Notes under the pieces: model-generated | Told to the model about the DNA's origin: nothing | Databases searched by the model: none | What the model saw: the letters and a program-made list of their open reading frames with translations, nothing else | Assembly: GCA_035295165.1 (NCBI GenBank) | Contig: DATGJN010000049.1 | Coordinates: 1-64,000, forward strand | Source of the DNA: a bacterium | GTDB taxonomy: Bacteria > Sysuimicrobiota > Sysuimicrobiia > Sysuimicrobiales > Segetimicrobiaceae | DNA length: 64,000 nucleotides | Direction of reading: 5' to 3' | In this document: piece by piece, positions 9,884 to 18,618 of the stretch | How positions within the stretch are numbered: position 1 is the first letter of the stretch | How the letters are laid out: each line of letters starts with the position of its first letter | Made by a program: the position numbers and the translations under genes

Positions 9884-9912
9884 TGGTGCCCCCAGCGAGA
9901 TTCGAACTCGCG
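9884..9912 (-). repeat. attL: duplicated 3' end of tRNA-Glu
   Basis: 29 bases identical to 18541-18569, comprising the CCA end, the acceptor 3' strand and the T arm of tRNA-Glu. No tRNA 5' half follows, so it is an attachment-site copy and not a tRNA gene. Confidence 0.92.
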
Positions 9913-14853: not shown

Positions 14854-15004
14854 GCGGGATGGTAGTCACGGGTGCGCCCCCGAAGAAGACATGTGAAGTC
14901 GCACGCGACCAGTCAGTCGTCGAGTGAACCGACCCCAGAATAACGGCCCCGAGCTGTTGGCGTTAACGCCTGCCGGTGGTTAGTATTCAACGGAGGTGAG
15001 GAGC

Positions 15005-15601
15005 ATGGCGTTTATTCGCACGATTCCCCCGGAAGAAGCCGCTGACGTGCTACGACAACTCTACGACAGCGATCTCAAGAGCGGAGGCGCCGTGGCCAAC
15101 CACACTCGCGCCCTCAGCCTCCGGCCAGATGTTACGGTGGCATGGCGCGCCCTTAGCAAGGCCATCCGCACACACATCGATCCACGCCGGTACGAGTTGA
15201 TCACCACCGTGGTCGCTGCCAGTCTGCGGTGCAGCTACTGAACACTTGCACACGGGGCGGTGCTCCGTAACCAGTTTTTCAAGCCGGAAGAGGTCGAAGC
15301 CATCGTGCGCGATTACCGGAATGCCGGGTTAGCCGCTGCGGACGTCGCTATGCTCGCGTTCGCGGAGAAGGTTGCGCTCCACGCCTACCGGGTGACGAAA
15401 GAGGACGTGGATGAACTGCGGAATCACGGATTCGCCGACGACGAGATCCTCGACATCGTCCTTACGGCTGCGGCCCGGAACTTCTTCAGTCGGGTGATCG
15501 ATGCGGTGGGGGCGGAGCCCGATCCGGAGTACCTCGACCTTGAGGCAGGCTTTCGGCAGACCTTGGCAGTCGGGCGTCCATTTGGAGGGCCGGCCAAATA
15601 G
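15005..15601 (+). CDS. AhpD-like peroxidase, probable selenoprotein (in-frame TGA = Sec79)
   Basis: Read through the TGA at 15239-15241, this is a 198-residue AhpD/carboxymuconolactone-decarboxylase-fold protein. The conserved catalytic set is Glu64, Cys76, Sec79 and His83 (segment RCSY-TGA-TLAHGAVL). The spacings of 12, 3 and 4 residues equal those of Glu118, Cys130, Cys133 and His137 in mycobacterial AhpD, so the TGA falls exactly on the peroxidatic cysteine. Protein homology continues without a shift on both sides (FFKPEEVEAIVRDYR, LTAAARNFFSRVIDAVG). A SECIS-like hairpin follows the TGA. ATG 15005 has GGAGG 8 bases upstream. The alternative is a nonsense mutation of TGC/TGT, but the exact position and the hairpin argue for selenocysteine. 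The selenocysteine machinery is not in the window. Confidence 0.75.
15239..15268 (+). promoter_or_regulatory. UGA codon with bacterial SECIS-like hairpin
   Basis: Sixteen bases after the TGA starts a hairpin with stem ACGGGG/CTCCGT (one G-T pair) and apical loop CGGTG. A small apical loop with G among its first two bases, and 16 or more bases between UGA and the loop, fit the known bacterial SECIS pattern read by SelB. Confidence 0.6.
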
Positions 15602-17139: not shown

Positions 17140-17424
17140 TCAAGCGGACCCCCTACCTCGCAGAGCCTTGAGCGCCGCATGGCGCAGTCCATCCTTCAGC
17201 CTCTCGCGATACTCAACTTCGACGACGAGCGTCGGCTTCACCCAATGCGGCGGCAGGTCGGTCCGTAGCTCACCCCAGTGGTCGCGGAGAGTCGGAACGG
17301 GCGTGAATGGGCAGGTCTCGGCGGGCGTCGCCTTGAGCTCTTCGAGGATCACTTTGCGGGTATCGACCGGAAGCCCGCTGCCTGCCAGTCCCGCATACAC
17401 GAGTTTGCCCTTGCGGTCGTACGC
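17140..17424 (-). pseudogene. ATP-dependent DNA ligase, C-terminal fragment
   Basis: About 95 residues reading AYDRKGKLVYAGLAGSGLPV, then CPFTPVP, HWVKPTLVVEVEYRERLKDG and LRHAALKALRGRG. This is the last part of the OB-fold domain of LigD/LigC-type ATP-dependent ligases. The catalytic nucleotidyltransferase domain is absent: going upstream, homology ends at about 17425, where integrase sequence on the opposite strand begins. It is therefore a gene fragment left by recombination. Confidence 0.8.
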
Positions 17425-17431
17425 CGAGACC

Positions 17432-18581
17432 CTGCTGCACCAGCGGATCTATGAAGTGCGTTCGGGCAAGTACCCGATTCTTGCTAAGCGCACACGAATA
17501 ATCTTCGCGGCCTTTGCCGAAGAGTGGCAGACGAAGCATTTGGTCCGTGTGCGAGCCTCAAGCGCCAAGCGATACCGTGAGCTACTCCAACAGCAGTTGC
17601 TACCAGAGTTCGGAGACCTGCTGCTTGCTGGCATCACCGTTTCGCTTGTACAGACGTTCATGGCGGAGAGTATACGGTCCGGCAAACTTGCGCCCACGAC
17701 GATCAACAGCGCAGTCGCCTTGCTCAAACAGATGCTAGCGTCTGCCGCGGACTGGGGCTATCTTACCACGTCGCCGATTGCCAAGGTACGGAAACTCCCG
17801 ATTCCGCGACGGTCTCTGCCGCTCTGGACGCCGGCCGAACTCCGACGGTTCCTCCTGGTGGTCCCTGGTGCGTGGCGTCCCTTGTGGCTCGTGGCGACGT
17901 TCACAGGACTTCGCCCCGGCGAGATCCAGGCGATGCGATGGACCGATCAAAACTGGCCTGATTTCACGGCCAACAAGATCCACGTCACGATGTCCTACGA
18001 GGCACGATCGAAGGTGCTTGGGGCCCCGAAGACCGACCGGTCCGTGCGAGACGCGGATATGGTTCCGACCGGGTGTCGGATCCTGCAATCGCGTCCGAGT
18101 CGTGCGCATGGCGGACTCGTGTTCCCCGGGGCTGGGGGAGGAGTCTTCAGCCGGGACACCATGAGGGCGGCGTGGGAGCGTACGATCTCTGCGGCGCGAG
18201 TGCGTCCGCTTCGGCCTTATGATCCGCGGCATACGTTCGCGTCGCTCCTGATTGCGGCCGGCAAAAACCCCACTCTACATCGCCCGTCAGATGGGCCACC
18301 ACTCGGCTGGCTTCACTCTTGACACTTACGGGCACCTGATGGAGTCCGCGCCCAAGCGTCAGGTCGAGTGGATTGACGAGCTTGTCTTTCCTGAGGGGTT
18401 CGAATCTGCACTTAATTTGCACTTGTACAGCGCTCCGATCGATTCAGAACCGTGCAGTTCTGTTCTATCGGGGGACAGGTCAGACCCCTTGTATGACGGG
18501 CTTCCCGGTAGTGTCGTGCCGAACGATGCAGAACAGTGCGTGGTGCCCCCAGCGAGATTCGAACTCGCGTTACCGGCTTGA
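17432..18581 (+). pseudogene. Tyrosine integrase of the island, 5'-truncated and frameshifted
   Basis: Integrase homology starts abruptly (LLHQRIYEVRSGKYPILAKR) without the N-terminal arm-binding part. It continues through the core-binding SAM-like domain (VRASSAKRYRELLQQQLLPE) and the catalytic domain, with the first arginine in TGLRPGEIQAMRW and the PYDPRHTFASLL box. At the CCCC run 18268-18271 the frame shifts by one base; in the other frame the end is intact (LYIARQMGHHSAGFTLDTYG), with the catalytic tyrosine in DTYGH. The shifted frame runs into the tRNA-Glu end. Both defects make an active recombinase unlikely. Confidence 0.88.
18406..18425 (+). repeat. Tandem GCACTT repeats, possible integrase arm sites (right)
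   Basis: Two copies of the GCACTT core 11 bases apart (CTGCACTTA and TTTGCACTTG), in the same orientation and spacing as the left-end pair at 9989-10010, about 115 bases inside the right attachment core and inside the 3' part of the integrase. Confidence 0.45.
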
Positions 18582-18618
18582 AGGGCCGATGTCCTAGGCC
18601 AACCTAGACGATGGGGGC
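18541..18618 (-). tRNA. tRNA-Glu (TTC), island insertion site
   Basis: A full cloverleaf on the minus strand: acceptor GCCCCCA/TGGGGGC, D arm with GTCTAGGTTGGCCTAGGAC, anticodon stem TCGGC/GCCGG around the loop CCTTCAA (anticodon TTC), T arm GCGAG-TTCGAAT-CTCGC, then A and an encoded CCA. Unusually, position 33 is C where U is nearly universal. The last 29 bases are duplicated at 9884-9912. A possible -10 (TATGAT) lies about 20 bases upstream. Confidence 0.93.

Follow-up and report, generated by a model that had tools for sequence, protein, structure and literature searches.

The gene analysed here lies on the forward strand at 15005–15601 of the window, the 64,000-nucleotide stretch of DNA that was examined as a whole. 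It contains a single internal stop, a TGA at 15239–15241 (codon 79), and when this codon is read as selenocysteine, the translation gives one frame of 198 residues that is closed by a TAG. A ribosome-binding-like GGAGG (14992–14996, same strand) is situated upstream of the ATG, and GGAGG or a comparable purine-rich run precedes most of the orthologue starts. The sequence-only reading of this DNA had proposed that the TGA interrupts one AhpD-type protein, and the profile searches bore this out: the product of the entire frame matched the Pfam CMD family (7.9e-12) and scored above the cut-off of NCBIfam TIGR01926, "peroxidase-related enzyme" (96.1 vs. 81.8 bits). The same cut-off was passed by two of the three orthologues scanned, with the third (L110) slightly under it at 75.4 bits. 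Around the TGA the motif E-x11-C-x2-U-x3-H can be read, comprising Glu64 (15194–15196), Cys76 (15230–15232), residue 79 and His83 (15251–15253), so that Cys76-Ser-Tyr-Sec79 forms a CxxU motif. The catalytic residues of Mycobacterium tuberculosis AhpD are Glu118, Cys130, Cys133, and His137 (PMC3141380), and the spacing of 12, 3, and 4 residues, which had been noticed earlier, proved to be exactly the same in the two proteins.

A lone TGA in a draft genome could come from a mutation or an error, in which case it would be a true stop and the locus a pseudogene or an assembly mistake. The orthologues argue strongly against this origin. Seven of them (L104–L110), which come from separate assemblies of other genera in the same order and are 48–84% identical to the window protein, carry TGA in the identical column, so that the codon is present in 8/8 orthologues including the window gene; each of the seven has this one internal TGA and no other internal stop, and the stops scattered to other sites that would have spoken for decay were not seen among them. 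More distant relatives showed the alternation of TGA with TGC/TGT that had been anticipated for a selenocysteine site. From the named genomes that were scanned, 80 relatives were retained, at most 46% identical, and among the 79 in which the full E-x11-C-x2-[CU]-x3-H motif was readable the column held TGC/TGT in 77 (a total that includes L042 with its TGC) and TGA in two. TGA was found at the CxxU position of the distant homologues L119, L120, L121, L123, and L125 as well. Together with L083 and L086, these make up further AhpD-like frames with TGA at CxxU, which belong to the same order and to Nitrospinota and fall on separate branches where they were included in the tree. In that tree of 37 rows, the eight selenocysteine orthologues group together in a single clade (support 96/92), with at least five changes between Sec and Cys across the family. 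Their sister group, a Cys clade (L111, L115, L117, and L126), has S-x-x-C instead of Cys-x-x-U and Tyr/Phe instead of the His, thus the two-residue redox centre was probably lost in that lineage.

Directly after the TGA, the transcript can form a hairpin, ACGGGGC[GGU]GCUCCGU (15252–15268), with a stem of 7 bp that begins 10 nt past the TGA and a 3-nt GGU loop (15259–15261) that begins 17 nt past it. The hairpin reported previously is therefore present, but its loop is this GGU at 17 nt and not CGGTG at 16 nt. It falls within all limits published for bacterial SECIS elements (PMC13188914), having a 3-nt loop that starts with G, a 7-bp stem, a spacing of 17 nt from the TGA, and a folding energy of −9.0 to −9.3 kcal/mol. 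The suggestion that such a hairpin would be improbable by chance did not hold for the window taken alone: folding of 15230–15290 gave no signal (z = +0.25), and 199 of 2000 synonymous-codon permutations were at least as stable, which is a weak result. For the other seven orthologues, just 1–26 of 2000 such permutations folded as stably. The significance of the hairpin comes from its conservation in the orthologues rather than from the fold of the window sequence. Across the orthologues, codons 83–88 read CAC GGA GCG GTG CTC CGT, and the window has GGG instead of GGA, which introduces a G.U pair into the stem. When the eight orthologues were compared, the same codon was used in 96% of the same-residue comparisons in this stretch, vs. 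a median of 50% per six-codon window, and all eight top-ranked six-codon windows overlapped it. A strict SECIS script, which accepts perfect stems only, was passed by 12 of 15 TGA homologues vs. 18 of 86 Cys homologues and 12% of the TGA triplets of the window, counts that are not independent tests as the rows are related. Four distant TGA homologues passed with stems of other sequence and three failed. When a second post-TGA hairpin of the same sequence was sought across the genome, only this one was found.

The list of open reading frames gives 14996–15241 and 15260–15601 separately, and annotation programs would probably call both, which raises the alternative that two polypeptides are made, the first stopping at the TGA and the second, 113 residues long, being re-initiated at GTG 15260. 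This seems highly improbable, since re-initiation would omit Sec79 and His83, two residues that every orthologue retains, the GTG in question falls within the hairpin, and the Cys homologues are single continuous proteins.

The sequence beyond the hairpin also speaks for readthrough. Differences between the window gene and its orthologues are about as frequent 3′ of the hairpin as 5′ of the TGA; in the comparison with L104, pS and pN were 0.39 and 0.11 before the TGA and 0.38 and 0.09 after it, and dN/dS downstream of the hairpin was about 0.1–0.26 where it could be estimated (synonymous sites were saturated in the comparison with L107). Judged by these substitutions, purifying selection acts on the codons downstream of the TGA just as it does on those upstream, which argues against a stop followed by dead sequence.

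The machinery for selenocysteine insertion, for which the earlier reading had recommended a search, was found complete in the source assembly (121 contigs, 97.9% complete). The tRNA-Sec gene (70.6 bits, contig C76) was confirmed by ARAGORN with the anticodon TCA, selA (536.7 bits) and selB (329.6 bits) adjoin each other on C24, and selD (383.4 bits) is located on C80. The selD frame (L096:1501–2421) has an in-frame TGA of its own within the motif CAGUASKLSP, after which comes a stem of 7 perfect base pairs closed by a CGUGU loop, thus by its sequence selD is itself a predicted selenoprotein gene with a SECIS-like hairpin. In the order as a whole, tRNA-Sec was detected in 36 of the 43 genomes searched. 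The same search gave no tRNA-Sec match in three genomes with a TGA homologue, namely G040 (85% complete), which has the close orthologue L109, G042 (69% complete), and G030 (93% complete), which holds a distant TGA homologue only; the first two assemblies are clearly incomplete. These genomes weigh to some extent against the selenoprotein reading, as do the weak fold of the window hairpin by itself and the three distant homologues that failed the strict script.

The frame becomes open once the TGA stands for any residue, therefore reading as another amino acid without selenium, such as Trp through suppression or an altered code, was also considered. We regard it as the remotest of possibilities: the homologues have Cys at the site and not Trp, the genome encodes the whole Sec pathway, the hairpin conforms to a SECIS element, and TGA serves as the terminal stop of the orthologue frames L105, L106, and L107. 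As for the nonsense mutation or error, the shared TGA column, the purifying selection that persists past it, the frozen hairpin codons, and the Sec machinery of the genome leave it very unlikely. Considering the tRNA-Sec, selA, selB, and selD genes, the TGA in seven orthologues, the selection past the TGA, and the frozen hairpin codons, we concluded that 15005–15601 very probably encodes an AhpD-like selenoprotein, as the sequence-only reading had proposed, in which Sec79 is predicted to be read from TGA by means of the SECIS element. In the proposed course of decoding, SelB with Sec-tRNA(UCA) would bind the hairpin directly 3′ of the UGA, and the ribosome would place selenocysteine at residue 79 rather than terminate.

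The product would be an enzyme of 198 residues with the AhpD/CMD fold, built of helices throughout. The AlphaFold2 model, calculated from 13 aligned sequences with residue 79 as Cys, is all helical (pLDDT 92.9, pTM 0.89) and places Glu64 in helix 60–73 and both residue 79 and residue 83 in helix 77–90. The nearest solved structures are the AhpD-like peroxidase-related proteins 2prr, 6k40, 2oyo, and 3c1l (TM about 0.8). The protein combines a predicted AhpD fold with the Glu/Cys/Cys/His spacing of 12, 3, and 4 of AhpD peroxidases. In the AhpD family, the residue at the position of Sec79 acts as the attacking nucleophile. The redox centre would be formed by the Cys76-x-x-Sec79 pair with Glu64 and His83; we infer by analogy a peroxidatic Sec79 with Cys76 as the resolving residue. 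Sec79 would most likely attack a peroxide or a similar oxidised substrate, then Cys76 would close a selenenylsulfide, which a cellular thiol system would reduce. Our best guess for the function is a thiol-dependent peroxidase. It is less likely, though a serious possibility, that the selenoprotein is not a peroxidase and uses its CxxU centre to reduce something else, such as a disulfide or a halogenated aromatic. In favour of this, the debrominase Bmp8 (6ohi, 6ohj) is also among the fold matches, the place of His132 in M. tuberculosis AhpD is taken by a Tyr, the solved structures nearest to the protein are labelled uncharacterised, and the neighbourhood includes genes for a luciferase-like monooxygenase, a muconolactone-isomerase-like protein, and a PNPOx-like protein. 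Bmp8, however, ranks below the peroxidase-related structures, and these neighbours are not conserved: near the orthologues, no conserved neighbour was found for GYD, PNPOx, or others, with weak luciferase-family matches only.

The gene is situated between two exact 29-bp direct repeats. The right repeat (18541–18569) is the 3′-end of a tRNA-Glu gene (TTC) on the reverse strand at 18541–18618, beside which a phage-type integrase, identified by Pfam, is encoded at 17168–18322 on the forward strand; the left repeat, the copy of this tRNA 3′-end at 9884–9912 (forward strand), marks the left end of a probable island. A repeat of a tRNA 3′-end with an adjacent integrase is the usual form of integrated islands. 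Since the selenoprotein gene lies between the two copies, one of which is beside the integrase, it probably belongs to the cargo of an integrated island of about 8.7 kb. The homologue search showed that the gene is absent from both other genomes of the genus (G001 and G002). In these, synteny holds on the right-hand side of tRNA-Glu, and the far left part of the window (to about 3.8 kb) recurs about 3.8 kb (G002) or 7.5 kb (G001) past the tRNA with different DNA between, which indicates from the arrangement of the three genomes that the site is variable within the genus. Neither G001 nor G002 showed an empty site in the strict sense, as other DNA intervenes. A DRL-oxidoreductase gene to the left of the island was considered as a left anchor and dropped, its homologues in the relatives being only 36–48% identical. 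No related integrase turned up in the flanking stretches that were read for the other orthologues, so any mobility would so far concern the copy of this genome, in its probable island. Two further observations were made at such sites. In G002, a NUDIX homologue beside tRNA-Glu (L152, C92:23538–24161) has one TGA within the matched stretch. The tRNA-Sec gene of the source genome also adjoins a phage-type integrase (L001:1497–2839, C76), 41% identical to that of the window, which makes tRNA-Sec a possible site of integration.

Taken together, the comparative evidence makes one selenoenzyme of a gene that is likely annotated as two fragments. The AhpD-like Sec family gains a clade, from an order that has largely retained tRNA-Sec (36/43 genomes searched), and the frozen codons of the SECIS provide a clean case of RNA constraint within a coding region. 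The island setting points to a testable path by which a selenoprotein could spread. A tentative interpretation, which we consider possible but somewhat doubtful in its entirety, is that this AhpD-like selenoprotein clade, so far seen in one order and here carried as cargo of a tRNA-Glu island, represents a mobile gene dependent on the Sec machinery of its recipient, maybe with a substrate other than peroxide.

Such proteins have been on record since 2005, when 27 sequences of AhpD-like CxxU selenoproteins were reported from the Sargasso Sea (PMC1088965), and in 2008 the Global Ocean Sampling set yielded them again (PMC2398784). A 2026 review lists the "AhpD-like protein, TIGR01926, CxxU" (PMC13188914), a definition into which the predicted window protein falls. 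It shares with that family a TIGR01926 score above the cut-off, the CxxU motif, a SECIS element after the TGA, and widespread Cys homologues, whereas its eight orthologues make up a well-supported clade of their own within one order, the published family having been compared by its description. NF041238 (AhpD_rel_CFYUT), which the same review gives as CxxU (PMC13188914), and NF053654 (YciW-related) are likewise AhpD-type (seleno)proteins. Membership in either was rejected, the scores lying far under the thresholds at 52.7 bits against a cut-off of 175 and 35.9 bits against 310, respectively, and NF041238 differs also in its longer model of 357 positions. The structural relatives 2prr, 6k40, 2oyo, and 3c1l, mostly described as uncharacterised, are 26–30% identical to the window protein, and in the alignments 2oyo and 6k40 have Cys where it has Sec. 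M. tuberculosis AhpD has the same Glu/Cys/Cys/His arrangement and also Cys in place of Sec, but it is more remote, with 12–14% identity in the structural alignment and a TM of about 0.5. At the residue preceding the selenocysteine, the window protein has Tyr78 where M. tuberculosis AhpD has His132, and this Tyr is shared with PA0269 of Pseudomonas aeruginosa.
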